From Microbacterium stercoris (GTDB lineage Bacteria; Actinomycetota; Actinomycetes; Actinomycetales; Microbacteriaceae), in contig NZ_JAGFOA010000006.1 of assembly GCF_017592545.1 (NCBI RefSeq), forward strand, positions 186,001 through 250,000: a DNA stretch of 64,000 nt, written 5' to 3'. Shown here in pieces: positions 3,665-33,704 of the stretch. Position 1 is the first letter of the stretch. The number at the start of each line of letters is the position of its first letter. The notes beneath the pieces were generated by a model, which did not search any database, was not told where the DNA came from, and was given only the letters and a program-made list of their open reading frames with translations. Position numbers and translations under genes: made by a program.

Positions 3665-4297
3665 ATGGCATTGACGCCGGATGACGTCGTCACCAAGCAG
3701 TTCCAGCACGTCCGGTTCAAGGAGGGCTTCGACCCGGATGAGGTCGATGACTTCCTGGACGAGATCGTCGTCGAGTGGCGCAAGACGATCGAGGAGAACA
3801 ACGAGCTGAAGGCCAAGCTCGCCAAGTACGAGTCCGGCGAGCTCGCGCCCGCCGAGGCCGCCGCTCCCACCGCCGAGGCGCCTGTTCCGGCCGAGCCCGA
3901 GCCGGTCGTCGAGCCCGAGCCCCAGGTGGAGCAGGCTCCGGCCGCTCCTGCCGCGGACTTCTCCGCCACGGCCACCAGCGCCGCCAGCATCATCGAGCGC
4001 GCGCAGCGTCTGCACGACGAGCACGTCGCCGAGGGCAAGCAGCTCGCCGAGCAGCTGGTCGACGAGGCCAAGGCCGAGTCGGACCGCATCAAGGCCGAGG
4101 CCGAGACGAAGCAGCGCGAGCTCACCGAGAAGTACGAGCGCGAGCGCACGACGCTCGAGGGCCGCATCACGGAGCTGCGCCAGTTCGAGCGCGACTACCG
4201 CTCACAGCTGCGCAGCTACTTCGAGGGCAAGCTGAAGGATCTCGACGCCACGGGTTCGAACTCGGGCGAAACGCCGGTCTCGGCGATCGGCCTCTGA
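3665..4297 (+). CDS. wag31: Polar growth protein DivIVA/Wag31
   Basis: This coiled-coil scaffold gathers at cell poles and the septum and directs peptidoglycan insertion; it is usually essential in actinobacteria. The conserved N-terminal DivIVA domain is clear (MALTPDDVVTKQFQHVRFKE, then GFDPDEVDDFLDEI). A proline/glutamate/alanine-rich linker spans roughly residues 60-100, and a long charged coiled coil follows (about 105-190). A GGAG-type site at 3655-3658 supports the start. The product is 210 residues, with a shorter C-terminal coil than the mycobacterial protein. It closes the division cluster. Confidence 0.96.
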   Translation: MALTPDDVVTKQFQHVRFKEGFDPDEVDDFLDEIVVEWRKTIEENNELKAKLAKYESGELAPAEAAAPTAEAPVPAEPEPVVEPEPQVEQAPAAPAADFSATATSAASIIERAQRLHDEHVAEGKQLAEQLVDEAKAESDRIKAEAETKQRELTEKYERERTTLEGRITELRQFERDYRSQLRSYFEGKLKDLDATGSNSGETPVSAIGL

Positions 4298-18979: not shown

Positions 18980-20725
18980 ATGGCGACCACACTCCAGGAG
19001 CACCGCACCACGCTCCCGCCGCGGCAGGCCGCTCTGCTCAGCGCATCGCGCACTGAGCAGAAGGGCAACATCGTGGTCAAGTGGCTGACGTCCACCGACC
19101 ACAAGACCATCGGCTACATGTACCTGATCGCCTCGGTGATCTTCTTCGCGATCGGCGGCGTCATGGCGCTGATCATCCGCGCCGAGCTGTTCGCTCCGGG
19201 CATGCAGGTGCTGCCCACCAAGGAGCAGTACAACCAGCTGTTCACGATGCACGGCACGATCATGCTGCTGATGTTCGCGACGCCGCTGTTCGCGGGCTTC
19301 GCCAACGCGATCCTGCCGCTGCAGCTGGGCGCCCCGGATGTGGCCTTCCCGCGTCTGAACGCGTTCGCGCTGTGGCTGTTCATCTTCGGATCGACCATCG
19401 CCGTCGCGGGCTTCCTGACCCCGTCGGGTGCCGCCTCCTTCGGATGGTTCGCGTACCAGCCCCTCGCGAACGCGACGTTCTCACCGGGTGTCGGAGGAAA
19501 CCTCTGGATGCTCGGCCTGGGCCTCTCCGGATTCGGCACGATCCTCGGCGCGGTGAACTTCATCACGACGATCATCACGATGCGCGCCCCCGGCCTGACG
19601 ATGTGGCGCATGCCGATCTTCACCTGGAACACGCTCATCACGAGCATCCTGATTCTCGTGGCGTTCCCGGTGCTCGCGGCGGCTATCTTCGCCGCCGGTG
19701 CGGACCGCGTGCTCGGCGCTCACATCTACGACCCGGCCAACGGCGGTGTGCTCCTCTGGCAGCACCTGTTCTGGTTCTTCGGTCACCCCGAGGTGTACAT
19801 CATCGCGCTGCCGTTCTTCGGCATCGTCTCGGAGATCTTCCCCGTCTTCAGCCGCAAGCCGATCTTCGGATACAAGACGCTCGTCTACGCGACCATCGCG
19901 ATCGCGGCGCTGTCGGTGGCCGTGTGGGCGCACCACATGTACGTGACGGGCGGCGTGCTGCTTCCGTTCTTCGCGCTGATGACGATGCTCATCGCCGTTC
20001 CGACCGGTGTGAAGATCTTCAACTGGATCGGCACGATGTGGCGCGGATCGCTGACGTTCGAGACGCCGATGGTCTTCGCACTCGGCTTCCTCGTGTCGTT
20101 CGTGTTCGGCGGTCTCACGGGCGTGATCCTGTCCTCGCCGCCGCTCGACTTCCACCTGTCCGACTCGTACTTCGTCGTGGCGCACTTCCACTACGTCGTC
20201 TTCGGAACGGTCGTCTTCGCGATGTTCGCGGGCTTCTACTTCTGGTGGCCGAAGTGGACGGGTCGCATGCTCAACGAGCGTCTCGGCTTCGTGCACTTCT
20301 GGATGCTCTTCATCGGCTTCCACATGACGTTCCTCATCCAGCACTGGCTGGGTGTGGATGGCATGGTCCGTCGTTACGCCGACTACTCGGCTGCTGACGG
20401 CTGGACCTGGCAGAACCAGCTCTCGACGATCGGTGCCGTCATCCTGGGCGCCTCGCTGCTGCCGTTCTTCCTCAACGTCTGGATCACCGCGCGCACCGCG
20501 CCGAAGGTCACGGTCAACGACCCGTGGGGCTACGGCGGATCGCTCGAGTGGGCCACGTCGTGCCCGCCCCCGCGCCACAACTTCACGTCGATTCCGCGCA
20601 TCCGCAGTGAGCGTCCGGCCTTCGACCTGAACCACCCTGAGGCCGGGATCCCGGTCGGCGTGGGTCCGGCGAAGGACGCCCCCGACGCGCCCGTGATCGA
20701 CGTCGCGGACGGAAAGGTCAAGTAA
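18980..20725 (+). CDS. ctaD: Cytochrome c oxidase subunit I CtaD
   Basis: The catalytic subunit of the aa3-type oxidase holds haem a and the haem a3/CuB site where oxygen is reduced and protons pumped. The start is ATG at 18980, two bases after ctaC. Twelve hydrophobic helices are visible. Haem and copper ligands are recognisable in [21 protein letters not shown] (the cross-linked His-Tyr), [10 protein letters not shown] and [10 protein letters not shown]. The product is 581 residues, with a soluble tail typical of actinobacteria. Its stop overlaps the ctaF start. Confidence 0.97.
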
Positions 20726-21144
20726 TGCGCTCCCACATCGGAATCTGGTGGCTCCTCGCCGGCTTCTTCGCCGTCACGGCTGTGGTCTACTCCGTCTGGG
20801 CTCTCATCGACCACGGCGAGATCGAGTGGGTCGGCACGGTCGCCCTCTCGTTCGGCTTCTTCATGTCCGCGATGATCGCGTTCTACATCCAGGTGATCCA
20901 CAAGGGTCAGCACGGGGTGAACCTTCCCGAGGACCGTGACGACGCCGACATCGACGACGGCGACGCGGAGCTGGGCGAGTTCAGCCCCTGGTCGTGGTGG
21001 CCCCTGGTGCTCGCGGCTTCGGCGGCGCTGATGATCCTGGGCCTCGCGGTCGGTCAGTTCCTGATCCCCGTGGCACTCGGCATCTTCGCGATCGCGATCG
21101 TGGGTTGGGTGTACGAGTACTACCGCGGATACTTCGCTCGCTGA
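20725..21144 (+). CDS. ctaF: Cytochrome c oxidase subunit IV CtaF (actinobacterial type)
   Basis: A small four-helix membrane subunit found in the actinobacterial bcc-aa3 supercomplex. It has two hydrophobic helices at residues about 7-60, an acidic loop (PEDRDDADIDDGDAELGEF) and two more helices, ending YEYYRGYFAR. Length is 139 residues, normal for the family. The start overlaps the ctaD stop by one base. A strong hairpin closes the operon. Confidence 0.93.
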   Translation: MRSHIGIWWLLAGFFAVTAVVYSVWALIDHGEIEWVGTVALSFGFFMSAMIAFYIQVIHKGQHGVNLPEDRDDADIDDGDAELGEFSPWSWWPLVLAASAALMILGLAVGQFLIPVALGIFAIAIVGWVYEYYRGYFAR

Positions 21145-21155
21145 TTCAGTACTGA

Positions 21156-21190
21156 GACGCCCCGGCCGGATGCCTTCCGACCGGGGCGTC
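21156..21190. terminator. Terminator after ctaF
   Basis: A perfect ten-base stem, GACGCCCCGG paired with CCGGGGCGTC, is followed by TTG. It sits between convergent genes (ctaF and the IclR regulator). It marks the left edge of the amine-dehydrogenase segment. Confidence 0.85.
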
Positions 21191-21206
21191 TTGCTGTCCG
21201 CCTGCC

Positions 21207-21923
21207 TCAGGTGCGCGTCGACCAGACCGCGCCGATGCCCACGGCCGCATCGCGCAGGCGGGCGACGTGGCGCGCTGCCGTGGAGATGTGCGTCGGCGGG
21301 GCCGAGAGCGCAACGGCCCCGACGACCGCTCCGGCGACGTGCACGGGGATGGCGAGGCAGGCGCCGTTCGGCGTGAGCATCCCGACCTGCTGGGCGTATC
21401 CGCGCAGCGCCGTGGCTTCTCGCAGGTCGTGGATCTCCTCTTCGGCGACTCCCCACAGGGCGCGCGCCCGTGGCGCGGGGAGTTCCGCGAGCAGCACCTG
21501 GCCGATCGCTGAGTGCGTGGGGTGCGCGGCGAAGGCGTCGACATCCGAGATGGGATGATGAGCGTCCTCATCGATGAGCTCGATGCGTGCGCCATCGAAT
21601 CGCGCCAAGTGGATCGCCGCCGAGGTCGTGCGCCGCAGGTCGGCGAGAATGGCCGACTCAGGGGAGGGGACCACCGATGACACGGTCTGCGCCAGCTCCA
21701 GCACCCGCACTCCGAGGATGAACCCGGTCAGGTCGGGGTGGCGAAGGAGGAACTCGCTCTGCACCAGGGAGTTCACGGTGCGATACATCGTGGACCGCGG
21801 CACCTGCAGGGCGCGCGCGAGGTCATTCGCCGAGATCCCGCTGCGGTGCCGTGCGACGAGCTCGAGCACCTGCAGGGCGAGAGAGACCCGATCGCCGTCT
21901 GCGGATGCCCGCCCGCCCGTCAC
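21207..21923 (-). CDS. IclR family transcriptional regulator
   Basis: A 238-residue regulator with an N-terminal winged helix (ALQVLELVARHRSGISANDL, then PRSTMYRTVNSLVQ) and a C-terminal effector domain of the GAF-like IclR type (SAIGQVLLAELP, GACLAIPVHVAG). It starts at GTG overlapping the stop of the APC transporter gene by four bases, so the two are co-transcribed away from the mau genes. By position it is the likely regulator of the divergent transporter and mau operons, with an amine or its product as a plausible effector; that role is inference. Confidence 0.9.
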   Translation of the reverse strand: MTGGRASADGDRVSLALQVLELVARHRSGISANDLARALQVPRSTMYRTVNSLVQSEFLLRHPDLTGFILGVRVLELAQTVSSVVPSPESAILADLRRTTSAAIHLARFDGARIELIDEDAHHPISDVDAFAAHPTHSAIGQVLLAELPAPRARALWGVAEEEIHDLREATALRGYAQQVGMLTPNGACLAIPVHVAGAVVGAVALSAPPTHISTAARHVARLRDAAVGIGAVWSTRT

Positions 21924-23374
21924 CGGGACCGCCGCGGGACGGTGTCGGGCGCCGGACCGGGTGCGCCGCCGATGGAGTCGGACGCGGTCGGCACGTCGTA
22001 GATGCCGATCCGTGCGGCGACCGCGCGGTCGCGATGCGCCCGATGGAGCAGCACAACGATGACGACGACGAGGAGAACCGCGCCCGCCCAGACGGGCCCT
22101 GCGCGCTCCGGCGAGATCACGAACAGGAAGTGGATCAGGGTCGCGGCCAGGGCGATGATGACAATCGTCGAGGGGAGGGCCGAGATGCCGCGGAACTCGC
22201 CGATCCGCGCAAGGAAGGCGGGCGCGGCGGCCGCCGCCAGCAGGTAGGCGACCAGGAACCCCAGAACGGCCGCGGAGTCGGCGGTGTCCTCGGCAGGGGA
22301 TCCCGCACCGCCCAGGGCGACGATCAGCAGGGCCGGAGCGGCCACGCCGGTCGCCGCGACGACCGCGGCCACCGCGGGGGTGCCGCGCCGGCTGATCGCG
22401 CCCAGTGACGTCGGGAGCACTCCCTCACGGCTCATCACGAAGCAGAGACGCGCGAGCGCCGTCGCCGTGGCGAGCGCGCACGCGAGGAACGACAGCGCCA
22501 CGATCAGATCCACAAGCGCTCCGGCGCCGCCCATGCCGGCTGCCGCACCCCCGACCGTGTTCGCTCCGGCCCCCAGGAGGTAGCAGACGCCCACAACGAT
22601 CACCGTGGTGATGAGAGACTGCGGGATGGCGGCGAGCGGCCGCCGCACCTCCGCCCCGAGGGCGGTTCCCGATTCGAAGCCGATGAAGCCCACGAGACCC
22701 ACCGCGACGCCCGCGAGCACCGCGTCGAAACCGGAATCGGCCTCGACGGCTCGAGGGAGCACGGGAGTCAGGTCCCATCCGGCGTCGGCGAAGGTGATGA
22801 CGGCGGCGGTGGTGACGGCGGCCAGCGCGATGATCTCGATGACGAGAAGGATGCGCGTCGACAGGCGCACACCGCGGGCGATGACGAGTGCGACGAGCAC
22901 GCCCATTGCGAGGACGATGCCCGCCCCGATCGCGGGGGAGGTGCGCTCGTCGGCGCCGATCAGCGTCGCGATGCGGCTCGCGGCGCCGACGAGGCAGACA
23001 GCCGCGATGGACAGGTAGCCGATCGCGAGAGCGGCACCGGCGACGATGCCGACCCGCGAGCCCAACCCGAGCACGGTGAAGGTGTAGAGAGATCCCGCGC
23101 TGGTCACACGACGCGCGAAGAGATTCAGCGTCACGGCGAGCAGCACAACGACGATCACGGTTGTCAGCGCCGCGAGCATCGTGAACGATCCGGCTTGGGT
23201 CTGGAGCTCGTCCGGATTGACGAGGGCGACGCCCGCGGGTGCGACCGCCGCGACCGATTGCGCGATCACATCGACGCGTGTGGCATCGCGGCGGCGCAAT
23301 CCGCCCAAGGGGGATTCCTGTGCGAGTCCCTCGACAGGGGTCCGTTCGACGATCGCGCGTCCGAGTGCCTGCAT
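21920..23374 (-). CDS. APC superfamily amino acid/amine permease
   Basis: A 484-residue integral membrane transporter with about 12 hydrophobic segments. Family features include the glycine-rich GFIGFESGTALGAEVRRP block and the N-terminal ALTTVIVVVLLAVTLNLFAR helix. The N-terminal 60 residues before the first helix are longer than usual, so the true start could be downstream. Divergent placement from the mau operon, in an operon with an IclR regulator, suggests it imports an amine or a related nitrogen compound. The substrate cannot be read from sequence. Confidence 0.8.
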   Translation of the reverse strand: MQALGRAIVERTPVEGLAQESPLGGLRRRDATRVDVIAQSVAAVAPAGVALVNPDELQTQAGSFTMLAALTTVIVVVLLAVTLNLFARRVTSAGSLYTFTVLGLGSRVGIVAGAALAIGYLSIAAVCLVGAASRIATLIGADERTSPAIGAGIVLAMGVLVALVIARGVRLSTRILLVIEIIALAAVTTAAVITFADAGWDLTPVLPRAVEADSGFDAVLAGVAVGLVGFIGFESGTALGAEVRRPLAAIPQSLITTVIVVGVCYLLGAGANTVGGAAAGMGGAGALVDLIVALSFLACALATATALARLCFVMSREGVLPTSLGAISRRGTPAVAAVVAATGVAAPALLIVALGGAGSPAEDTADSAAVLGFLVAYLLAAAAAPAFLARIGEFRGISALPSTIVIIALAATLIHFLFVISPERAGPVWAGAVLLVVVIVVLLHRAHRDRAVAARIGIYDVPTASDSIGGAPGPAPDTVPRRSR

Positions 23375-23605
23375 CCTGCGCCTCCAGCTGGCTCGACCCT
23401 AGGGCGGGCGCGTTGCCTGGCCGGATCCCCGGTGTTACCGGCACATCACGTGACCCGGGACACACGGGGCACCCGCCCCCTGTCGCGTCCCAATCGCCGT
23501 GCGGAGATCGTCTCCGGGCCGCTACGGCGACGAAAGACCTGGCTGGGAGTCTCGGATCACCGCCGCCGGGCTCACCGGAGGGGCGGTGGACGAGAGGAGA
23601 CAGGC
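23375..23605. promoter_or_regulatory. Divergent control region between APC/IclR and mau operons
   Basis: This 231-base gap holds the start regions of two opposite transcription units. It contains the short palindromes CCGGT-GTT-ACCGG (23429-23441) and TCACGTGA (23446-23453), both candidate operators for the IclR protein or another regulator. GAGGAGA at 23593-23599 is the ribosome-binding site for mauE. No promoter boxes can be assigned with confidence. Confidence 0.45.
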
Positions 23606-24202
23606 GTGATCTGGTCGCTGCTTTCGACAGTGCTGGGAGGGATCCTGCTGCTCTCCGGTGTCCCGAAGCTCCGTGAGTCCGCCGCGATGCTCACCGTTGT
23701 GCGCGGGTATCGGCTTCTCCCCGCCACGCTCGAGCGGCTGGTCGCCCGGGTCCTGCCGACGGCGCAGGTGATCCTGGGCGCGGCGCTTGTGCTCGGCATC
23801 CCGCTGCGCATCGTCCCCCTGGCGGCGACGGGACTGTTCCTCGTCTTCTTCGCCGCACTCGCGATCAACCTCCTTCGGGGCCGGCGCGATCTCGACTGCG
23901 GCTGCTTCGGATTCGCGGGCTCGGAAGAGACACCGCGCATCGGGTGGTTCCACGCGTTCCGCGCCTTGCTGCTGGCGTTCGCCGGCGGCGTGCTCGCCGT
24001 TGCACCAGGCCGCGTCGGTCTGGGCTTCACCCCGCCCGCCGAGCAGCTCGTCGGCACGGCGATCGCGGCGGTGGTGTTCGCGGGCGGGCTGGCGGCGATG
24101 TCGCTGCGTCGCGTGATCCATCCCGGCCGCCGCACGGTCGACTCCCATCTGGCGGCGGCGCGGACGGAACTGCGTGCCGCGTCGTCGCTCTCCCGATCCT
24201 GA
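23606..24202 (+). CDS. mauE: Methylamine utilisation protein MauE
   Basis: MauE is a DoxX-like membrane protein needed in proteobacteria, with MauD, to make the disulfide-rich light chain of methylamine dehydrogenase. The start is GTG at 23606, seven bases after GAGGAGA. About four hydrophobic segments are visible in the 198 residues, with an extracytoplasmic-type cysteine pair in DLDCGCFG (Cys98, Cys100), the family hallmark. It is the first gene of the rightward mau operon and is followed by mauD 57 bases later. MauE-like proteins also occur with other TlpA/thioredoxin partners, so the specific role rests on its neighbours. Confidence 0.87.
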   Translation: MIWSLLSTVLGGILLLSGVPKLRESAAMLTVVRGYRLLPATLERLVARVLPTAQVILGAALVLGIPLRIVPLAATGLFLVFFAALAINLLRGRRDLDCGCFGFAGSEETPRIGWFHAFRALLLAFAGGVLAVAPGRVGLGFTPPAEQLVGTAIAAVVFAGGLAAMSLRRVIHPGRRTVDSHLAAARTELRAASSLSRS

Positions 24203-24259
24203 CGCCGCCCCCGGATCCGTTCCCTACTGTCTGCATCCACTCTCGACCGAAGGAGCATC

Positions 24260-24898
24260 ATGACGCTCTTCCTGCTGATCGCCGTCGTCGTCCTGGCACT
24301 CGCCGTGGCCTTCCTCTTTCTGATGAATCTCGCGCTCGCCCGAGAGATCGGGCGTGTGCAGGTGCGCCTCGGTCCGCTGGGCGCGCGGATGATGGACAAC
24401 GGCCCGCGTGTCGCGGAGGCCGGCCCCGCGTTCGCCGGGCTGACGGATCATCTCGGCCGCAGCGTCAGCGTCGCCGGGCACCGCGACCGTGCCCAGCTGC
24501 TGATGTTCACGGGGCCCAAATGCTCGACGTGCAAGAGCCTGCTCCCCGGCCTCAAGGCGCTCGCGAAGGCCGAGCGCAAGGAGCTGGAGGTTGTGCTGAT
24601 CTCGGATGGCACACCCGAGGAGCACGAGGCGTTCCTTGCCGCGGCCGGCATCCGAGACGAGTTCTCGTACGTCGACGCGCGCGATGTGGGTATCGCCTAT
24701 CAGGTCGGCACCACGCCCTACGGCGTTGTCCTCGACGAGCACGGCAAGATCCGGGCCAAGGGGCTGTGCAACCAGATGGCGCATGTCGAGAGCCTGCTCA
24801 ACGCGCTCGAGACGGGCACCCCGTCCCTGCAGCACCTGCACGAGCACGCGAAGGCGCGCGCTGCCGCGGCGCCCGCATCCGAGCTGATCGCGCGCTGA
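24260..24898 (+). CDS. mauD: Methylamine dehydrogenase accessory protein MauD (thioredoxin fold)
   Basis: MauD is a membrane-anchored thioredoxin-like oxidoreductase thought to form or isomerise the six disulfides of the MauA light chain. A single N-terminal membrane helix (LLIAVVVLALAVAFLFLMN) is followed by the fold with the redox motif GPKCSTCK (Cys88, Cys91) and the cis-proline region TTPYGVVL. Length is 212 residues, close to known MauD proteins. An AAGGAG site precedes the ATG. mauA follows 56 bases later, and the E-D-A gene order is the same as in proteobacterial mau clusters. Confidence 0.9.
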   Translation: MTLFLLIAVVVLALAVAFLFLMNLALAREIGRVQVRLGPLGARMMDNGPRVAEAGPAFAGLTDHLGRSVSVAGHRDRAQLLMFTGPKCSTCKSLLPGLKALAKAERKELEVVLISDGTPEEHEAFLAAAGIRDEFSYVDARDVGIAYQVGTTPYGVVLDEHGKIRAKGLCNQMAHVESLLNALETGTPSLQHLHEHAKARAAAAPASELIAR

Positions 24899-24954
24899 GC
24901 GCGACGATCACGTAGACCTCGCACCACCGAACGTGAGAAAGGAGATCGACCGAC

Positions 24955-25635
24955 ATGACGGAGAACCAGTACCCGATCGATGAATCGGCCATGCAAGAGC
25001 AGATCGACTGGATGGCAGGCCGGGGCGGCAGCATGATCGGCCGCGTCGGGCGCAGGATGTCCGAGACGACGTCGCGCCGCTCGATGCTCGGGGCCCTGGG
25101 CCGGTGGGGGATCGGGGCCGCCGGAGTGGCTCTCATCGCGAGCCTCCCGGTGACGCGCGCCGACCTCGCGGCCGCCGCCATACCGTCCCACCGACCGGCG
25201 GCCGGTGGCGACGAGCTCTTCCCGGCGTTCGACGAGACGGGCGACACATCGACCTGCGAGTACTGGCGCTGGTGCAACATGGACGGCACCCCGTGCACCT
25301 CCTGTGCCGGAGGCGGCCTGACCACGTGCGCGCCGGGGTCGAAGCCGGGCGCGGAGTTCTGGGTGGGCTGCTGCACCAATCCTGACGACGGCAAGACATA
25401 CCTCATCGCCTACTACGACTGCTGTGGCGCTCCGGGGTGCTCCAACACGTTCTGCGGCGAGCCCGACAACCAGGCGATCATGTACAACCCCGTCGCCGGC
25501 TCGTTCGACCAGGAGATCATCTGGTGCGTCTCGGACGAATCGCAGGCCTACACCTGCACCATGGCGCCGATCATCGGCACCGACTGCCAAGTGGCGCCCT
25601 CCGCGCGCCCCAAGGTCGGAGCGGGGTCGCGATGA
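24955..25635 (+). CDS. mauA: Methylamine dehydrogenase light chain MauA (TTQ subunit)
   Basis: The small catalytic subunit of a primary-amine dehydrogenase that carries tryptophan tryptophylquinone made from two of its own tryptophans. By alignment from memory with the Paracoccus light chain, Trp136 (FWVGCC) and Trp190 (EIIWCV) match the TTQ tryptophans 57 and 108, and Asp110 (NMDG) and Asp155 (YYDCC) match Asp32 and Asp76, which serve catalysis and maturation. There are 14 cysteines after the signal, two more than the usual 12. A twin-arginine-type signal (SRRSMLGALG, residues 40-49) precedes a hydrophobic stretch, after an unusually long 39-residue leader. GAAAGGAG lies just upstream, and the stop overlaps the mauB ATG. 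The true substrate may be another primary amine. Confidence 0.94.
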   Translation: MTENQYPIDESAMQEQIDWMAGRGGSMIGRVGRRMSETTSRRSMLGALGRWGIGAAGVALIASLPVTRADLAAAAIPSHRPAAGGDELFPAFDETGDTSTCEYWRWCNMDGTPCTSCAGGGLTTCAPGSKPGAEFWVGCCTNPDDGKTYLIAYYDCCGAPGCSNTFCGEPDNQAIMYNPVAGSFDQEIIWCVSDESQAYTCTMAPIIGTDCQVAPSARPKVGAGSR

Positions 25636-26945
25636 GCGCGCGTCGCACCGTCGTCCTTCCCGCCGTCGTGCTGCTCGGCACGACCGTCGCCCTCACGGGA
25701 TGCATCGCGACCGCGGGCGCATCCGAGGGGGAGTCGAAGGAGAAGCCGGCGGGTTACGTGGAACTCCCGGACCAGCCCTGGACCCCCGCGGACGAGGACA
25801 CCCCTCTCGGCGGCGAGGACGAGGAGATCCCCTCGGCCGATGCGATCCCCGAGAAGCTGCACGTGAGCAAGATCGATCCGATCGGCGAGGACGAGATCCT
25901 GCTGATGGGCGAGGGATGGGGGCTGGAGATCAGCTCTCAGGTGATCGACCCGGCGACCGGGGAGGCGACGGCGAAGTTCACGACGGGACCGGGTATCTGG
26001 GATCCCGTGATCCACGCGTTCGTCGGGGAGGATCCCGATGACCCGGCGGTGCTCGCGCAGGAGGTCTGGCGACCGCGCGGATCGCGGGGCGCGGCGGAGT
26101 TCACGATTTCGACGTACTCCGGTGACCTCCTCACACCCGACGAGATCGTGATGCCCGACTACACGCGATCGCACTCGCGCTGGGGGTCGAGCGACCTCAC
26201 GCAGGACGGTCGGTACCTCGTGTTCTGGGATGACGCCCTCTACGGCCCGCGCATCTACGACCTGGAAGAGGGAGAGGAGACCGGAGCGCTGGCGATCCCG
26301 GAATGCGGACCCTTCGCCTGGGTCGTCGAGCGCACCGTCTACTCCGTGTGCGAGCGCGACCGGGAGCTGATCGAGCTCACGATCAAAAAGGACGGATCCC
26401 TCGCGGAGGCGGGGCGCGAGAAGGTGCTGCCCGCCGACTTCGTCAGCAACCGCCATGCCAGCATCGCTCATGACGCCGGCAAGGCTCTGCTGGTCTCCGC
26501 CAACGGAGACGTCTTCGTGTTCGACTTCGGCGACGGCCTTCCCACCGCTCAGCAGAAGCCGATCGGCAACGCGGGCCAGGACTCGGGGCGCTTCGACCAG
26601 TTCGTGCTCAACGTCGACGCCACGAGCATGGTGATCAGTTACACGGACTCCGAGATCCACCCCGACTCCGTCAACGGCGGCGACGAGGTGCGTCTGATCG
26701 TGTCGGACCCCGAGACGTTCGCGCCCCTGGCCGACCTGAGCCTGGAATCGATGAAGCTCGCATCGCTCGATGCCTTCGGGTACTCGGTAGACGGCGCGAC
26801 GCTGTATGTCGTCGGGTCGACGGCCGATGAGAAGCTCGAGATCGTGGGCTTCGATGCGCTCACCGGCGCGGAGAAGTCGCGCTCGACGATCGACAACTTC
26901 ACCGATTCGCCGTCGCGCATCATCACCCCGCGGGTGATGGGATGA
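25632..26945 (+). CDS. mauB: Methylamine dehydrogenase heavy chain MauB-like lipoprotein
   Basis: The large beta-propeller subunit that pairs with MauA and channels substrate and the electron acceptor. It starts at ATG overlapping the mauA stop (ATGA). A signal with lipobox ALTGC (Cys24) replaces the cleavable signal of proteobacterial MauB. Blade-like repeats run through the rest. The cysteine pair in IPECGPF (Cys225) and VYSVCERD (Cys240) matches the conserved heavy-chain disulfide, and the C-terminal PSRIITPRV echoes the family ending PQIITTHDM. It is 437 residues, near the family length. Similarity is moderate, so an aromatic- or other-amine-specific form is possible. Confidence 0.83.
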   Translation: MSARRTVVLPAVVLLGTTVALTGCIATAGASEGESKEKPAGYVELPDQPWTPADEDTPLGGEDEEIPSADAIPEKLHVSKIDPIGEDEILLMGEGWGLEISSQVIDPATGEATAKFTTGPGIWDPVIHAFVGEDPDDPAVLAQEVWRPRGSRGAAEFTISTYSGDLLTPDEIVMPDYTRSHSRWGSSDLTQDGRYLVFWDDALYGPRIYDLEEGEETGALAIPECGPFAWVVERTVYSVCERDRELIELTIKKDGSLAEAGREKVLPADFVSNRHASIAHDAGKALLVSANGDVFVFDFGDGLPTAQQKPIGNAGQDSGRFDQFVLNVDATSMVISYTDSEIHPDSVNGGDEVRLIVSDPETFAPLADLSLESMKLASLDAFGYSVDGATLYVVGSTADEKLEIVGFDALTGAEKSRSTIDNFTDSPSRIITPRVMG

Positions 26946-28555
26946 ACCGCTCCGGAGCCGGTCTGCTGGATGTGCGGACGAGTCGTCGCGGAGTCCTCCG
27001 CCTGGGCGCCCTCGGCGTCGGAGCATGGGGACTCGGGTCGCTGGGACTGGGCCTGACAGGATGCGCGCCGCAGACCCCTGCACCGGCGGCCGGTTCCGGA
27101 TACGACTTCATCCTCCCGCATGACCCCGAGGTGGCGGCGGCCGAGGCCGCCCGGACGAGCAGCGGCCGCACCGCGGCCTTCGCTCTCGCAGCGGGCGCTG
27201 CGGTCGTCGATCTCGCAGGACGCAAGGCCACCACGTGGGCCTATGGCGGTGAAGCGGTCGCGCCCGTGCTGCGCGCCTCGCGCGGCGACCGGATGCACGT
27301 CGCGGTGACGAACGCGCTGCCGGAGGAGACCACGCTGCACTGGCACGGGATCCGCATCCGCAACGACATGGACGGCGCCGCACCCACCACGCAGGATCCG
27401 ATCGCCGCGAACGGCGGCACCTTCGACTACGACTTCGTGGTCCCGGATCCGGGCACCCACTGGTACCACTCGCACAGCGGACTGCAGGCGGACCGCGGTC
27501 TGTTCGGCGCGCTGATCGTCGAGGACCCGGACGACCGGACCGGGGTGGATGCGGACGCCGTGATCGTGATCGACGACTGGGTCGACGGCCTCGGCACAAC
27601 ACCGGATGCCGTGCTGGCCGCGCTCAACCCGGCGTTGGCGGGTGCGCACGGCGGACACGGCGGCCATGCCGCCCAGACCGCCTCGCCCGCGCCGACTCCC
27701 GAGGGGGCGGCCCTCACGTTGGCCGCCGATCTCGTGTCGCAGGGGCACGGCGACTCGGGGGCGCTCGGCGGAATGACTCAGCACATCTCCTATCCGCTGC
27801 ACCTGATCAACGGGCGCCCACCCGAGGACCCGGCGGTGATCGACGCTGTCGCCGGTCAGAGGCTGCGTCTGCGCGTGATCAACGCCGCCGCCGAGACCCC
27901 GTATCGTCTCGCCGTCGGCGGTCACGAGCTCACGGTGGTGGCCGTGGACGGCTTCGACACCCGGCCCCAGAAGGCGGACACCGTGATCGTGGGGATGGCG
28001 CAGCGCGTCGACGTGATCGTGACGGTCCGTTCGGGCGCCTGGCCGGTGGTGGCGAGCGTCGAGGGACGGCCGGGGCATGCGGCCACGATCCTGAAGACGA
28101 ACGACGCGATGCCCTTCTCGGGGCCGCTTCCCACGCGACTCGACGAGCACAGCCGCCACCTCGTGATGGAGAGCGAGCTGCGTCCCGCCGAATCCGGTGT
28201 GCTCGACACCCGACCACCCGACCGCGACTACCGGGTGGAGCTCATCCAGGCGGGCGATCGGTACGCCTGGGGCATCGCAGGTGACGACGCCGGCGCGCTC
28301 GTGATGAAGCAGGGCGAGCGGATCCGCATCACGATGACGAACTCGACGCCGATGTGGCATCCGATGCACACGCACGGGCACACCTTCGCCGTTCCCCAGT
28401 ACGGGGGCCTCCGGCGGGACACCGTGATCTCGCTTCCGGGGTCGCAGCTCGCCATCGAGTTCGATGCCGACAACCCGGGCGAGTGGATGTTCCACTGCCA
28501 CAACGCCTACCACTTCGAAGCAGGCATGACGACGAACCTGCGCTACATCCGATGA
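26942..28555 (+). CDS. Multicopper oxidase, Tat-type lipoprotein
   Basis: A laccase-like oxidase with three cupredoxin domains that couples one-electron oxidations to reduction of oxygen to water. All four copper motifs are present: HWHG (His133/135), HWYHSHSG (His173/176/178), HPMHTHGH (His473/476/478) and HCHNAYHFEAGM (His518, Cys519, His520, His524, Met529). The N-terminus combines a twin-arginine motif (TSRRGVLRLG) with a lipobox LTGC (Cys41). A His/Gly-rich loop (GAHGGHGGHAA, about residue 235) may bind copper. It starts within the mauB stop (ATGA). Its place inside a mau operon is unusual: it may oxidise the blue-copper partners or act in TTQ maturation. A copper-tolerance oxidase is the dull alternative. 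Confidence 0.93.
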   Translation: MNRSGAGLLDVRTSRRGVLRLGALGVGAWGLGSLGLGLTGCAPQTPAPAAGSGYDFILPHDPEVAAAEAARTSSGRTAAFALAAGAAVVDLAGRKATTWAYGGEAVAPVLRASRGDRMHVAVTNALPEETTLHWHGIRIRNDMDGAAPTTQDPIAANGGTFDYDFVVPDPGTHWYHSHSGLQADRGLFGALIVEDPDDRTGVDADAVIVIDDWVDGLGTTPDAVLAALNPALAGAHGGHGGHAAQTASPAPTPEGAALTLAADLVSQGHGDSGALGGMTQHISYPLHLINGRPPEDPAVIDAVAGQRLRLRVINAAAETPYRLAVGGHELTVVAVDGFDTRPQKADTVIVGMAQRVDVIVTVRSGAWPVVASVEGRPGHAATILKTNDAMPFSGPLPTRLDEHSRHLVMESELRPAESGVLDTRPPDRDYRVELIQAGDRYAWGIAGDDAGALVMKQGERIRITMTNSTPMWHPMHTHGHTFAVPQYGGLRRDTVISLPGSQLAIEFDADNPGEWMFHCHNAYHFEAGMTTNLRYIR

Positions 28556-28566
28556 AAGGACACCCC

Positions 28567-28944
28567 ATGACGAACCCGCGCTCCCTCCTCCGCCCCGCCG
28601 TCGGGATGCTGCTCGCCGGGACGTTCGTCCTCGCCGGGTGCGCCGCGACCCCTGCCGCCGCCGGAGGGGACGACAGCGAGGCGGATGTCACCATCACCGT
28701 CACCGACATGTCGTACCAGCCGGCCGAGGTCACCATTCACCCGGGCGACACGGTCGAGTGGGTCTTCGATGACGGGGGTCTGCCGCACGACGTCTCCGGT
28801 CTCGACGAGATGGAGGGGGTGCTGCAGAGCGACCTGATGACGGAAGGCACCTTCACCTTCACGTTCGATGAGGCCGGCACCTACACCTACACGTGCACCC
28901 CGCACCCGATGATGCTCGGCACGGTCGTCGTCGAGGCGCCCTGA
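28567..28944 (+). CDS. Amicyanin-like blue-copper lipoprotein 1
   Basis: A small type-1 copper electron carrier. Ligands are His74 (LPHDV) and Cys110, His113 and Met116 in CTPHPMM, the same spacing as CTPHPFM of amicyanin, the natural acceptor of methylamine dehydrogenase. A lipobox LAGC (Cys25) anchors it to the membrane. The start chosen is ATG 28567, seven bases after AAAGGA; a further in-frame ATG lies five codons upstream. Length is 125 residues. The gene is co-directional and nearly contiguous with the multicopper oxidase, so it likely carries electrons from MauAB. Confidence 0.9.
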   Translation: MTNPRSLLRPAVGMLLAGTFVLAGCAATPAAAGGDDSEADVTITVTDMSYQPAEVTIHPGDTVEWVFDDGGLPHDVSGLDEMEGVLQSDLMTEGTFTFTFDEAGTYTYTCTPHPMMLGTVVVEAP

Positions 28945-28969
28945 GTCCCGCTCGCCCCGAGAAGAGAAC

Positions 28970-29359
28970 ATGCGACGCCCTGTGCCGACCCTCATCGCCG
29001 CCGCGGTCTCCCTCCTCACCGCGACCGGCCTGGTCGCCTGCACGATCGGGGGCGCGGGACAGACCGAGGGAGCGCTGGCCGCGAGCCACGAGCACGCCGG
29101 TCACACCCCCTCGACCCACACGGTCGCGATTCGCGATCTCGCCTTCACCCCCTCCGAGATCGAGGTGGCGGCCGGTGACACCGTCGCGTGGAGCTTCGAC
29201 GACGAGGGCATGCTCCATCACGTCGAGGCGACCGACGGCGAGTTCGAGAGTCCCATCCAGGGCGAGGGCTCCTTCTCCGCGACCTTCGAGGAGCCGGGCG
29301 AGCACCGCTACGTGTGCTCGATCCATCCCTACATGACCGGCGTCGTCCGGATCCGCTGA
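28970..29359 (+). CDS. Amicyanin-like blue-copper lipoprotein 2
   Basis: A second cupredoxin with ligands His83 or His84 (MLHHVE), Cys116, His119 and Met122 in CSIHPYM. The signal ends in LVAC (Cys24), a weaker lipobox. A His-rich linker (SHEHAGH, residues 39-45) follows, possibly a copper-loading segment. Length is 129 residues. It is about as different from the first cupredoxin as expected for two separate carriers, not a fresh duplicate. It lies 25 bases after the first copy, in the same operon. One may serve MauAB and the other the oxidase; this is inference. Confidence 0.88.
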   Translation: MRRPVPTLIAAAVSLLTATGLVACTIGGAGQTEGALAASHEHAGHTPSTHTVAIRDLAFTPSEIEVAAGDTVAWSFDDEGMLHHVEATDGEFESPIQGEGSFSATFEEPGEHRYVCSIHPYMTGVVRIR

Positions 29360-29415
29360 CGAACCATCCCGGGCCGAACGGCACCGGCATCCACCCCTGA
29401 AAGAAGGAGGAACCA

Positions 29416-30276
29416 ATGACGACCATCGAGACATCGCTGCTCTCCGGCCTGTCGCACCCCGTGCTGCAGACCGACCTCCCCGCCTTGCGGCCGACGGTGC
29501 GCCAGAGCGTGCCGATCCGTGTGCGCGCGATTCTGCCGATCACCGCCGCCCTCGCGGGAGCCGGTGCCGCCCTCGCGGTCGCGCCGGGCGCCGGGACGGC
29601 ACTGACCGCCTCCGTCGTCGGCACGGCGCTGCTCACGGCGATCGCGGCGAACTGGTCGACGTGCGGCATGTCGGTTGCCGGCGTTGTGGCGGCACCGAAG
29701 CAGCCCGACCGCGCGGGCGGATCGACACCGGTGCGTCGGCTCGGTTGGCACGCGCTCGGATCGGTGCTCACCGGCGCCCCGACCGGGGCCGCGATCGGGG
29801 CGATCGGAATGGCGCTGTCCGCGGTGATCGCTCCCGGCTGGGCACTCGTCGTGTGGGCGCTCGTGGCCGTGCTGTACGGTCTGCACGAGCTCGGAGCGCT
29901 GCGCATGCCCACTCCGATGCGGCGCCGGCAGCTGCCCCGTCACCTGCGGCGCACGATGGCGCCGCGGGCGGTCTCGTTCCTGTATGGCGCGATCATCGGC
30001 CCCGGCTTCCTGATCTTCATCCGGTCCAGCGCGTACTACCTGCTCGTGGCGGGCGTGATCCTCGCGGGCAGTCCGCTGCTCGGAGCCACGCTGTTCACGG
30101 TGGTGTCGCTCGGCCGCTGCCTGCCCAGCGTCGCCGCCATCCTGCACACGCGTGCGGGTGGCACGATGCCCGGTTTCCTGTCCGCGATGTGCCTCGTCGA
30201 CCGGCGCGTGCAGGCCATCACCGGCGCCGGCCTCATCGGGCTGGCTGCTTTCGCACTGGTGGCGCTCATCTCCTGA
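29416..30276 (+). CDS. MauF-like polytopic membrane protein
   Basis: A 286-residue integral membrane protein with about seven hydrophobic segments and a conserved-looking NWSTCGMSVAG motif (Cys83) early in the chain, followed by loops rich in arginine. Size, topology and the tryptophan-x-x-cysteine-glycine element agree with MauF, a membrane protein required for methylamine dehydrogenase formation in proteobacteria. It is the last gene of the operon, whereas mauF is usually first. An AAGGAGG site sits just before the ATG. The assignment is moderate: an unrelated membrane protein of the cluster is possible. Confidence 0.6.
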   Translation: MTTIETSLLSGLSHPVLQTDLPALRPTVRQSVPIRVRAILPITAALAGAGAALAVAPGAGTALTASVVGTALLTAIAANWSTCGMSVAGVVAAPKQPDRAGGSTPVRRLGWHALGSVLTGAPTGAAIGAIGMALSAVIAPGWALVVWALVAVLYGLHELGALRMPTPMRRRQLPRHLRRTMAPRAVSFLYGAIIGPGFLIFIRSSAYYLLVAGVILAGSPLLGATLFTVVSLGRCLPSVAAILHTRAGGTMPGFLSAMCLVDRRVQAITGAGLIGLAAFALVALIS

Positions 30277-30303
30277 CCGCGGCGCCCGGCGCCAGGCCGG
30301 ATG

Positions 30304-30335
30304 GATGCCCGGTGGACCTGTGTCCACCGGGCATC
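30304..30335 (+). terminator. Terminator of the mau operon
   Basis: A perfect 14-base stem (GATGCCCGGTGGAC and its complement) with a four-base loop lies 27 bases after the last mau gene. There is no long T-run. It fits the end of the mau transcript. Confidence 0.85.
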
Positions 30336-30400
30336 TCCGTGTGCGCGACATACATCTCGCGGCGGATGTCCGCCACGCGCGGGGCGACGACCATGTTCGT

Positions 30401-30847
30401 ATGCGGAAGACAAGGGGCCTTGCTCCGGCGACGGTGATGATCCTGTGCGGGCTTCTCGCGGGGTGTGCCGCCGCTCCGGATGCCGAGGACCGGCTGCTGG
30501 CGGCCGTGCACACGAAGTCGGTCACGCTCTCGGAGGTCTTCGACGACGTCGCCTGGGAGTCGCTCTACGTGGTGTGCCCGTACCAATCGCGCGAGACCAC
30601 CGCCGCCGCGCTCGGTGTCGATTCCGCCTCCGTCCCTGACCTCTCGGACGATGATTCGCGGCAGGTGGTGCTGCTGCTCGACGGGGGAGAGGTGGTGCGG
30701 CAGCTGCCGCTCGCACGGACCGCCCTCGATCTGTGTGCCCTGTCGTCGGTCACGCCGCCGATCATCGCCGGCGAGACCGACACCGTGATGTTCTCGGAGG
30801 CCGAGGGAATCTGGCGCGCCGAGCGCGTTGCGCCCGATCCGTCATAG
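30401..30847 (+). CDS. Small predicted lipoprotein
   Basis: I do not recognise a family. The 148-residue product starts MRKTRGLAPATVMILCGLLA and has a lipobox LAGC (Cys22). The mature part is acidic, with two cysteines (VVCPYQS and DLCALS) that could form a disulfide, and a strand-rich pattern (RQVVLLLDGGEVVRQLPL). It lies between the mau terminator and the terminator shared with qcrB, so it is probably transcribed alone. It may belong to the inserted segment or be an ancestral neighbour of the qcr operon. Confidence 0.75.
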   Translation: MRKTRGLAPATVMILCGLLAGCAAAPDAEDRLLAAVHTKSVTLSEVFDDVAWESLYVVCPYQSRETTAAALGVDSASVPDLSDDDSRQVVLLLDGGEVVRQLPLARTALDLCALSSVTPPIIAGETDTVMFSEAEGIWRAERVAPDPS

Positions 30848-30879
30848 GCGCTGCGCCGAGACCCAGGCCCGAAGACGAC

Positions 30880-30909
30880 AGCGCCCCCGGTCCGAAGACC
30901 GGGGGCGCT
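30880..30909. terminator. Bidirectional terminator before qcrB end
   Basis: A perfect 12-base stem (AGCGCCCCCGGT and ACCGGGGGCGCT) with a six-base loop lies between the convergent lipoprotein gene and qcrB. It marks the right edge of the segment between the two respiratory operons. Confidence 0.88.
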
Positions 30910-30924
30910 GGGAGGCGATCAGAG

Positions 30925-32598
30925 TCAGTGACCCGACTCGAGTTCACGCGGGCTGGGGCCGTACTCGTGCAGCTCGTGGTTCTGGTGGGCCACGGCCGAG
31001 TCGAGCTCAGTCTGCGTCAGCGGCGTGAGGCGGTCCTCGAAGAACCAGCGCGACAGACCGGCACGCAGCTTCTCGCCGAAGGGGATCTTGCCCTGGTCGT
31101 TGGGACGCAGGACGAGCGGAGCGTAGTTCTCCACGTCGACCAGCTTCCAGCGGTCGTACACGTTCACCGGGCGGTGCACCTCGCGGTACTCGCCGCCGGG
31201 CATGCGCACGATGCGACCCGACTCGTATCCGTGCAGGGCGATCTCGCGATCCTTCTTCTGCAGTGCCAGGGCGATGCGCTTCGTGATGAAGTACACGACC
31301 ACCGGCATCAGGATGAGCGAGATCTGCAGGAAGCGGATCACGCCCTCCATCGTGAGCATGAAGTGCGTCGCGATGATGTCCGACGAGGCAGCGGCCCACA
31401 GGATCGCGTAGAAGACGACGCCGGCGGCGCCGATCGCGGTGCGGGTCGCGGCGTTGCGCGGACGCTGGGCGATGTGGTGCTCGCGCTTGTCGCCCGTGAT
31501 CCACGCCTCGATGAAGGGGTAGATCGCGACGAGCACGATGAACAGACCGAGCACGATGACCGGGATCAGGATGCCGAGCGACAGCGTGAAGTTTCCGAGC
31601 TGGATGTCCCAGTTCGAGGGAGCCAGACGCAGCGCGCCATCCGCGAAGCCGATGTACCAGTCGGGCTGGGTGCCGGCCGACACGGGGGACGGGTCGTAGG
31701 GACCGTACGCCCAGATCGGGTTGATCTGCACCAGCGACGCGATCAGCACGACGGTGCCGAACACGATGAAGAAGAAGCCACCCATCTTGGCCATGTAGAC
31801 GGGCACCATCGGGTAGCCGACGACGTTGCCGTTCGTGCGGCCGGGGCCGGCGAACTGGGTGTGCTTGTTCACGATCATGAGCAGCAGGTGCACGGCGACG
31901 AGCGCGATGACCAGCAGCGGCAGGATCAGGATGTGCAGCGTGTAGAGGCGGCCGACGATCGCGTTGCCCGGGAACTCGCCACCGAAGAACAGGAACGAGG
32001 TCCAGGTGCCGATGATCGGCAGACCCTTGATGAGGCCGTCGATGATGCGGAGGCCGTTGCCCGACAGCAGGTCGTCGGGGAGCGAGTAGCCCGTGAAGCC
32101 CTCGGCCATCACGAGGATGAAAAGCACGAAGCCGATCACCCAGTTGAGCTCGCGCGGCTTGCGGAACGCGCCGGTGAAGAACACGCGGAGCATGTGCACG
32201 CCGATGCCGGCCACGAAGACCAGGGCGGCCCAGTGGTGGATCTGGCGGACCAGGAGGCCGCCTCGCACGTCGAAGGAGATGCGCAGGGTCGACTCGAGCG
32301 CCGACGACATCGCGATGCCGCGCATGGGCTCGAACGCGCCCGTGTAGTGGGTCTCGGCCATCGACGCCTGGAAGAAGAACGTCAGGAAGGTGCCGGACAG
32401 CAGCACGACGACGAACGACCAGAGCGCGATCTCGCCGAGCATAAACGACCAGTGGTCGGGGAAGACCTTGCGGCCGAGAGCCTTCACGAAGCCGGAGATG
32501 CTCGTGCGCTCGTCGAGGTAGTTGGCTGCGGCGGAGACGAACTTGCCGCCGAGCGGTGCCTCCGCCTCGGTCTTCTCAGGGGCAGTAGTGGTGCTCAT
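30925..32598 (-). CDS. qcrB: Cytochrome bc1/bcc complex cytochrome b subunit QcrB
   Basis: The quinol-oxidising membrane subunit of the cytochrome bcc complex. About nine hydrophobic helices are visible. The haem b histidines lie in QIHHWAALVFVAGIGVHMLR and in HILILPLLVIALVAVHLLL; GFTGYSLPDDLLSG is a family block near the quinol site. The ATG at 32598 overlaps the qcrA stop (TGATG); a TTG one codon upstream is less likely. The long C-terminal soluble extension is usual for actinobacteria. The product is 557 residues. Confidence 0.97.
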   Translation of the reverse strand: MSTTTAPEKTEAEAPLGGKFVSAAANYLDERTSISGFVKALGRKVFPDHWSFMLGEIALWSFVVVLLSGTFLTFFFQASMAETHYTGAFEPMRGIAMSSALESTLRISFDVRGGLLVRQIHHWAALVFVAGIGVHMLRVFFTGAFRKPRELNWVIGFVLFILVMAEGFTGYSLPDDLLSGNGLRIIDGLIKGLPIIGTWTSFLFFGGEFPGNAIVGRLYTLHILILPLLVIALVAVHLLLMIVNKHTQFAGPGRTNGNVVGYPMVPVYMAKMGGFFFIVFGTVVLIASLVQINPIWAYGPYDPSPVSAGTQPDWYIGFADGALRLAPSNWDIQLGNFTLSLGILIPVIVLGLFIVLVAIYPFIEAWITGDKREHHIAQRPRNAATRTAIGAAGVVFYAILWAAASSDIIATHFMLTMEGVIRFLQISLILMPVVVYFITKRIALALQKKDREIALHGYESGRIVRMPGGEYREVHRPVNVYDRWKLVDVENYAPLVLRPNDQGKIPFGEKLRAGLSRWFFEDRLTPLTQTELDSAVAHQNHELHEYGPSPRELESGH

Positions 32599-33704
32599 CA
32601 ATGACGCTCCCAGAAGCTCGGGCCGACGGGTTCGTGGAAGTCGCTCTGGGCGATGAGGTAGCCCTCAGCGTCGACGGTGATCGGCAGCTGCGGCAGCGGG
32701 CGGGCCGCCGGGCCGAAGATGACCTTGGCGTGCTCCGTCACGTCGAACTGCGACTGGTGGCAGGGGCACAGCAGGTGGTGCGTCTGCTGCTCGTACAGGG
32801 CGACGGGGCAGCCGACGTGGGTGCAGACCTTGGAGTAGGCGACGATGCCGTCGTACGACCAGGACTTGCGGTCCTCTTCCTCCTTGAGCTGCTCGGGGAG
32901 CAGACGCATGAGGAGGACGATCGCCTTGGCCTTCTCATTGAGCATGCCCTCGTTGTGGCCGAGCTCGAGGAGGTTCTCGGGGATGACGTGGAACGCCGAG
33001 CCGATGGTGACGTCCGAGGCCTTGATCGGGACGCCTGTGGGGTCGCGCACCAGGCGCACATCCTTGTCCCACAGAGTCTGGTTGAGCAGCGCCACCGGGT
33101 CGCCCGCGATGGGGTTGTCGGGCGTGGAATGCGGGGCCAGGCCGCGGAACAGCGTGATGCCGGGGAGGATCGACGCGCCGACTGCCGCGAAGAGCGAGTT
33201 GCGGATCATCTTGCGACGACCGAAGCCCGACTCCTCGTTGGCGAGACGCAGCGAGTCGACGACGGCGGTGCGCGTCTCCTCGGAGCCTCGAGTGCCGTGA
33301 CGCTCCTCGACGTACTCCTTGTCGCTCATCAGCGCCTTGGACCAGTGGATCGCGCCCACGCCGATGGCGAGGAGGGCGGCGGCGATGCCGAGACCGATCC
33401 AGAGGTTGTTGTAGCGGATCGACGAGGCGGATCCGTCCTCGATCGGGAACAGCATGTAGGCGGCGACGGCCCACAGGCTCGCAGCGACCGACACGTAGAA
33501 CAGCGTGTAGACCACGCGGTTCGCCATGCGCTCGGCACGGGGGTCCTTGTCGGTGATGCGGGTGCGGTGCGGCGGCAGACCGGGGTTCTGCACCGGGTCG
33601 GCGACCGAGACGGCCAGGCCGGGGTGGGCCTTGTAGGCCTCCACCTCGTGCGCGTCGGTGTCGTGAGCCATGGGGTTCCTCGTCACGTCTTCTTCGTTGG
33701 TCAT
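32598..33704 (-). CDS. qcrA: Rieske iron-sulfur subunit QcrA
   Basis: The Rieske subunit moves electrons from quinol to the di-haem cytochrome c. The 2Fe-2S ligands are Cys294, His296, Cys313 and His316, in CTHVGC and CPCHQS, with Cys299-Cys315 as the stabilising disulfide. Actinobacterial features are the long N-terminal part with three membrane helices, the third beginning after GFGRRKMIRN (a twin-arginine-like segment). Length is 368 residues. The start could also be the internal ATG at MAHDTDAHEV. It is the middle gene of qcrCAB. Confidence 0.96.
   Translation of the reverse strand: MTNEEDVTRNPMAHDTDAHEVEAYKAHPGLAVSVADPVQNPGLPPHRTRITDKDPRAERMANRVVYTLFYVSVAASLWAVAAYMLFPIEDGSASSIRYNNLWIGLGIAAALLAIGVGAIHWSKALMSDKEYVEERHGTRGSEETRTAVVDSLRLANEESGFGRRKMIRNSLFAAVGASILPGITLFRGLAPHSTPDNPIAGDPVALLNQTLWDKDVRLVRDPTGVPIKASDVTIGSAFHVIPENLLELGHNEGMLNEKAKAIVLLMRLLPEQLKEEEDRKSWSYDGIVAYSKVCTHVGCPVALYEQQTHHLLCPCHQSQFDVTEHAKVIFGPAARPLPQLPITVDAEGYLIAQSDFHEPVGPSFWERH

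Follow-up and report, generated by a model that had tools for sequence, protein, structure and literature searches.

An actinobacterial amine dehydrogenase operon with a multicopper oxidase and without MauG

The 64,000-nucleotide stretch of Microbacterium stercoris analyzed here (the window; contig NZ_JAGFOA010000006.1, positions 186,001 to 250,000; host genome size 3.57 Mb) contains a mau-type operon for an amine dehydrogenase of the tryptophan tryptophylquinone (TTQ) type. Its eight genes, all on the plus strand, run in the order mauE-D-A-B, multicopper oxidase (MCO), cupredoxin A, cupredoxin B, and mauF, with 4-base overlaps at the mauA/mauB and mauB/MCO junctions. The known builder of TTQ is the haem enzyme MauG. 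New here is a TTQ operon without any haem protein, in genomes without a MauG-family protein over the family cut-off. The operon was compared within a set of 36 actinobacterial mauA loci and their genomes, the window included. The features of the locus, with two divergent neighbors at the end, are as follows.

23606-24202, plus strand: MauE, membrane redox accessory protein; GTG start; PF07291, E 1.5e-21 (Pfam scan made on the longer open reading frame 23195-24202)
24260-24898, plus strand: MauD, thioredoxin-like accessory protein; TIGR02661, E 2.3e-50
24955-25635, plus strand: MauA, small subunit; PF02975, E 1.2e-32
25632-26945, plus strand: MauB, large subunit, beta-propeller, with lipobox; profile and fold comparison
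26942-28555, plus strand: MCO, three-domain, with twin-arginine-type leader and lipobox; PF07732/PF00394/PF07731
28567-28944, plus strand: cupredoxin A, amicyanin-like, motif CTPHPMM, lipobox by eye; PF00127, E 3.5e-14
28970-29359, plus strand: cupredoxin B, motif CSIHPYM, lipobox by eye; PF13473, E 7e-9
29416-30276, plus strand: MauF homologue, membrane protein; BLASTP 5e-10, hhalign 99.3 %
21207-21923, minus strand, divergent: IclR-type regulator; PF09339, E 2.7e-9
21920-23374, minus strand, divergent: APC-family amino acid/amine permease; PF13520, E 4.6e-15

The gene order given in a preliminary description of this DNA is borne out by these coordinates and by the Pfam, NCBIfam, and profile matches. 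Its statement that no CxxCH haem motif lies between 21.2 and 30.9 kb holds for every gene of that interval, and the one match of a six-frame scan of the interval falls within the MCO gene, in a minus-strand frame of 92 codons.

The amine dehydrogenase, the oxidase, and the cupredoxins

By its sequence, MauA is a TTQ-type small subunit (aligned to 3c75_L with E 1.1e-35), with W136 and W190 as the presumed TTQ tryptophans; TTQ, the working part of the enzyme, is probably built from these two residues of MauA itself. W136, W190, D155, D110, and T202 are kept in 35/35 actinobacterial MauA sequences (the residue counts leave out locus L037), where the counts of W136 and of residues 101-107 are biased because these residues sat in the locus search patterns, and W190, D155, D110, and T202 lay outside them. 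Their Paracoccus counterparts are W57 and W108 (TTQ), D32, D76, and T122; the second TTQ tryptophan bears the number 107 in an excerpt of PMC6405878. The MauA leader is of the twin-arginine type as judged by eye. Moreover, 14 cysteines are invariant across the 35 actinobacterial sequences, compared with 12 in the Paracoccus row, which makes one additional disulfide likely.

MauB gave no Pfam or NCBIfam match at E 0.001 and none in a sequence search of the PDB. A profile of 28 actinobacterial sequences, however, matches one of nine proteobacterial MauB/AauB with an hhalign probability of 98.0 % and E 2.4e-13. The structure model, for which 28/35 sequences entered the alignment, reaches a pLDDT of 81.2; Foldseek ranks 1-28 are all chains from entries of methylamine dehydrogenase (MADH) or aromatic amine dehydrogenase (AADH), and superposition on 2bbk_H yields a Z score of 30.1 and an rmsd of 4.0 over 337 residues. 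On this model, MauB is the beta-propeller large subunit of the MADH/AADH type. Its lipobox cysteine is invariant in 28/28 aligned sequences.

The MCO retains all ligands of the type 1, 2, and 3 coppers (23/23 aligned), and its leader carries an invariant RR and a lipobox cysteine (23/23), while the axial residue of the type 1 copper is methionine in 34/34. Its model, folded from an alignment of 23/34 sequences, is laccase-like, with a pLDDT of only 63.8. Cupredoxin A shares 35 % identity with the amicyanin of P. denitrificans, and its best NCBIfam match is the amicyanin family TIGR02657 (8e-17), at 61.4 bits against a cut-off of 110.2. The small subunit and MauD likewise stay below their equivalogs (TIGR02659, 127 bits against 196.85; TIGR02661, 170.7 bits against 188.6), so that the operon proteins miss all three MADH cut-offs. 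With these leaders and lipoboxes, MauB, the MCO, and both cupredoxins would be anchored on the outer side of the membrane.

The last gene, called F-like in the preliminary description, proves to be a MauF homologue. It has no Pfam or NCBIfam match at E 0.001, but it aligns with MauF of P. denitrificans (BLASTP 5e-10), and the actinobacterial MauF profile, built on 17/34 sequences, matches one of four MauF with a probability of 99.3 % (hhalign, E 3.1e-20). MauF is found in 35/36 loci, the remaining one (L037) being too short. The mauF gene of Kineococcus (L036, 10657-11478) is out of frame and sits between the genes for the two subunits, mauA and mauB. Two further cysteines, C235 and C259, are invariant in actinobacterial MauF (17/17); the Paracoccus row has phenylalanine at the position of C235, and the position of C259 falls beyond the alignment. 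A conserved stretch is also present close to the C-terminus of the actinobacterial proteins.

Recurrence of the operon and absence of MauG

The operon is rare. With the window's genome counted each time, mauA occurs in 3/366 genomes of the genus, 2/398 of the family sample, and 1/394 of the class sample; the phylum sample gives 2/396, again including the window's genome, the second being a 27-column match with a stop that was ignored. Another 33 loci came from one scan of GTDB contigs, in Rhodococcus, Prescottella, Nocardia, Kineococcus, Actinacidiphila, and Planctomonas. In relatives, the oxidase travels with mauA, a point that the preliminary description had raised for checking: it is complete in 34/36 operons, truncated where the contig stops in one (L037), and absent in one (L006, Planctomonas deserti), which leaves it in full at the same place in 33/35 loci other than the window's. 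The 3-kb contig of L037 stops about 160 bases into an open reading frame that by eye resembles the start of the MCO of L018 in leader, lipobox, and downstream stretch, and we counted it as present but cut; elsewhere in its genome only fragments of a distant MCO were found (best E 5.3e-46). The recurrence of the MCO at this place across mauA loci rules out chance or a local rearrangement as its origin. Further, the CTPHxxM cupredoxin is present in 34/34 related loci scanned, Planctomonas included, and the second motif (CSxHxxM) in 31/34, lacking in L005, L006, and L007. Searches of the open-licence PMC literature brought up neither actinobacterial TTQ enzymes nor a mau operon with an MCO.

The absence of MauG extends beyond the operon to the whole genomes. 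In the window's genome, the MauG/CCP family PF03150 gave no match at E 1, and none of the 36 mauA genomes holds a match over the cut-off, many of these assemblies being drafts with completeness values for three of them (G000, G508, and G550). Sub-threshold matches occur in 15/36 (E 0.035-1). Full-length MauG of P. denitrificans found no credible homologue in the 36 genomes; its only matches are 99-codon fragments with two in-frame stops in 2/36 genomes (E 6e-4 and 7.5e-4). Both the sub-threshold family matches and these stop-bearing fragments were taken as noise, and a distant MauG was rejected as an explanation. Among 14 control genomes, PF03150 matched in 7, over the cut-off in 2 and below it in several. 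As a positive control, the family scored over the cut-off in 5/12 plasmid records: in 4/4 mau-type plasmids (E 1.7e-43 or better) and in a Burkholderia record with two other family members, and in none of six other aau-type plasmid records or one Sphaerotilus record. The full-length query recovered 3/3 control plasmids. The preliminary description had reported the lack of mauG from the locus, and the genome-wide search extends this to the window's genome and 35 relatives at the family cut-off. Thus, a whole branch of TTQ-type operons, 36/36 genomes examined, is without the known TTQ builder over that cut-off, and the absence of the gene suggests that TTQ is made here without MauG.

A mauG-less TTQ cluster is not unique in itself, because 11 aau-type loci also lack the gene. 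This comparison (tblastn at 1e-4, within 14-18 kb) covered 16 of 31 matched plasmid records, one of them from Thermomicrobium, and left out a Sphaerotilus record without a full mauA gene annotated (L065). Among the 15 proteobacterial plasmid loci, the 4 of mau type all have MauF and MauG, whereas the 11 of aau type have neither in the locus. The latter (L040, L059, L061, L062, L063, L064, L066, and L138-L141) encode the small cytochromes “cyt2” (11/11) and “cyt1” (9/11), and an MCO only in Chimaeribacter. The Chimaeribacter copy of “cyt2” has one CxxCH, and “cyt2” is a candidate TTQ maturation factor of the aau-type loci. In the Thermomicrobium roseum plasmid (L137), two divergent MauA-like stretches (3780-4232 and 9001-9372) were noted, together with a long protein whose annotation reads MauE/DoxX family.

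The actinobacterial operon differs from both known arrangements. With the mau operon of Paracoccus denitrificans (mauFBEDACJG and ferredoxin genes) it shares homologues of MauF, B, E, D, A, and amicyanin as well as the TTQ tryptophans and the catalytic Asp/Thr of MauA. Its order, in contrast, is E-D-A-B-MCO-C-(C)-F; MauG, MauJ, and the ferredoxin genes are lacking in the operon, and an MCO, often a second cupredoxin, and lipoboxes are added. MauF, MauE, and MauD are thus common to the window and to the MauG-dependent system, and mauG is not. The aau operon has B, D, and A and likewise no MauG in the locus, but its 11 loci lack MauF and possess a small c-type cytochrome, whereas the operon of actinobacteria encodes MauF and is free of haem proteins.

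Planctomonas deserti and the maturation of TTQ

The preliminary description had considered that the copper oxidase replaces MauG. In this reading, the MCO, alone or through amicyanin, would oxidize the partly made TTQ in the precursor of MADH and thereby complete crosslink and quinone. MauG is absent while the MCO is complete in nearly all operons and begun in one more, the MCO tree resembles the mau tree by eye (with Actinacidiphila placed differently), and the export signals of the MCO point to the same membrane face. The operon of Planctomonas argues against it. On its 575-kb contig, 94 bases without an MCO separate the end of mauB (11961) from the start of the cupredoxin gene (12056). No other copy of the operon-type MCO was found in that genome at E 1e-10; a relocated MCO was rejected on this ground. 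Its one distant PF07732 protein is 22 % identical where the two sequences align, and the surrounding 14 kb showed neither mau proteins nor a cupredoxin. Nevertheless, E, D, A, B, the amicyanin-like cupredoxin, and F are intact and under purifying selection, and the key TTQ and catalytic residues of MauA are kept.

In a midpoint-rooted tree of MauD, A, B, and F (the trees leave out L037 and the out-of-frame MauF of Kineococcus), Planctomonas falls into one group with three congeners of the window that carry the MCO (support 100). With four proteobacterial rows as the root, support for this grouping is 93, which falls short of the tool's star, and the branch to the outgroup is very long. Since Planctomonas nests with MCO carriers and every row outside this group has the MCO, secondary loss of the oxidase is the simplest reading. 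dN/dS ratios by the Nei-Gojobori method, taken between Planctomonas and two MCO carriers with two pairs of those carriers as reference, are 0.21-0.27 against 0.12-0.16 for MauA (purifying, somewhat weaker), about 0.43 against 0.39-0.41 for MauB, and 0.20-0.26 against 0.26-0.28 for MauF. If the Planctomonas operon works, TTQ does not need the MCO; because the core operon and the TTQ residues seem to have outlived the oxidase, the MCO probably does not stand in for MauG, and its proposed role as the maturation enzyme is disfavored.

Three further observations point in the same direction. The axial methionine at the type 1 copper throughout the operon MCOs suggests a moderate potential, above that of amicyanin and well below tryptophan oxidation, and argues against a very high one. 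Tryptophan oxidation needs about 1 V according to an excerpt of PMC6405878. Additionally, the 11 aau-type TTQ loci do without mauG and, one exception aside, without an MCO. Finally, a related MCO-cupredoxin pair exists apart from the mau operon, in R. erythropolis and Rhodococcus sp. P-2 (L108, 8531-14996; L109, 3798-10263). This second MCO, 61 % identical to the window's, has its own CTPHPNM cupredoxin, and the pair adjoins genes for a binding lipoprotein and for two ABC transporters; it lies outside the mau operon, at a distance of a few kb. The lipoprotein belongs to PF01497 (Pfam for R. erythropolis only), a family that includes siderophore carriers. Since it occurs outside the mau operon, such a pair can serve another system. 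Taken with the points in its favor, we regard replacement of MauG by the MCO as improbable.

The gene set of Planctomonas narrows the candidates for TTQ maturation to MauF, MauE/MauD, MauB together with amicyanin that takes up the electrons, an enzyme of the host, or self-processing. The proteobacterial MauG removes six electrons. A haem-free route of copper finishing, in which MauF, amicyanin, and, in most lineages, the MCO take over these six electrons, is conceivable and on balance rather unlikely. A distant, unrecognized host enzyme, for instance a haem protein unrelated to the MauG family, might instead do the work of MauG, which would fit the minimal Planctomonas operon. No CCP_MauG protein exceeds the cut-off in the 36 genomes, however, and a transferred operon would need a ready helper in each host, as the cassette is rare in the genus and its sites differ; we hold such an enzyme to be very unlikely. 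Planctomonas provides a natural minimal set of E, D, A, B, amicyanin, and F, through which the question of what TTQ-making requires becomes a six-gene test.

The proposed route of the electrons

We favor, with a probability of roughly 0.6, the reading that the MCO is the terminal oxidase for the amicyanin-like cupredoxin. MauA and MauB would oxidize a primary amine on the outer face of the cell membrane, as homology suggests. The electrons of TTQ would then pass to cupredoxin A, and the lipid-anchored MCO would take them from one or both cupredoxins and reduce O2 to water, so that the actinobacterial branch would run a TTQ-type amine dehydrogenase on copper proteins alone. In the proteobacterial mau system, a small c-type cytochrome comes next in the chain, and titles of structure entries name proteobacterial amicyanin as the partner of MADH and a c-type cytochrome in one complex. 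For actinobacteria as a group, a lack of small c-type cytochromes is reported, with QcrC inside an obligate supercomplex (excerpt of PMC8361435), and the same is reported for mycobacteria (excerpt of PMC4505504). An MCO would close the gap left by such carriers. The axial methionine of the MCO and the occurrence of an MCO-cupredoxin pair outside the mau operon also speak for this role. The preliminary description had named this transfer from blue-copper proteins to oxygen as an alternative role of the oxidase; it emerges as the better supported of the two possible roles.

Also in its favor, the TTQ operon of the enterobacterium Chimaeribacter arupi (L064, 6493-11809) has as its last gene a different type of MCO, preceded by two small cytochromes. 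Enterobacterales are not known to have a cytochrome c oxidase. Several points weigh against an oxidase at the end of the amine chain. The argument from the Chimaeribacter host is one case, and its operon has cytochromes too; in 10/11 loci of the aau type, small cytochromes are present and an MCO is not. The loss of the oxidase is a single event in one genome, where the operon of Planctomonas might have ceased to function or might rely on the one distant MCO. Moreover, MCOs can oxidize hydroxylated aromatics, and the enzyme may therefore act on half-made TTQ. The electrons could also go straight to the bcc-aa3 supercomplex, with the MCO secondary.

The last possibility is part of another explanation, in which the MCO handles copper as a cuprous oxidase, protecting the cupredoxins or loading them, while amine electrons flow to the bcc-aa3 supercomplex. 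The best NCBIfam match of the MCO is indeed the copper-resistance oxidase TIGR01480 (CopA), albeit at 233.6 bits and thus below the cut-off of 478.95. The MCO shares fold and all copper ligands with the three-domain oxidases laccase, CopA, and CueO; in contrast to these, it forms a clade of its own and stands beside a cupredoxin. This clade (support 100) unites the operon MCOs and the two second copies of Rhodococcus and is apart from six paralogues of about 40 % identity. As judged by eye, a P-type-ATPase-like gene lies near three of the six and a response regulator near three, consistent with a copper-related role, but no cupredoxin was found near any of them. The position of the window's cassette between ctaF and qcrB (20725-32601), here 9.8 kb apart, would also suit delivery to the supercomplex. 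This setting is not common to G508 and G550, however, where ctaF and qcrB lie within 1.5 kb; the two genes are convergent within that distance in 6/9 other genomes, these two among them, and the remaining 3/9 show no qcrB within the 1.5 kb stretch examined. The neighborhood probably reflects a place of insertion rather than a link in function. We consider a cuprous oxidase in this role doubtful and its probability low.

If the MCO is instead the amicyanin oxidase that we favor, it would represent a new way of terminating amine oxidation in bacteria that lack small c-type cytochromes.

Upstream of mauE, homologues of the divergent IclR-type regulator are present in 32/36 mauA loci and homologues of the permease likewise in 32/36, the window counted in both, and the regulator probably belongs to the cassette.

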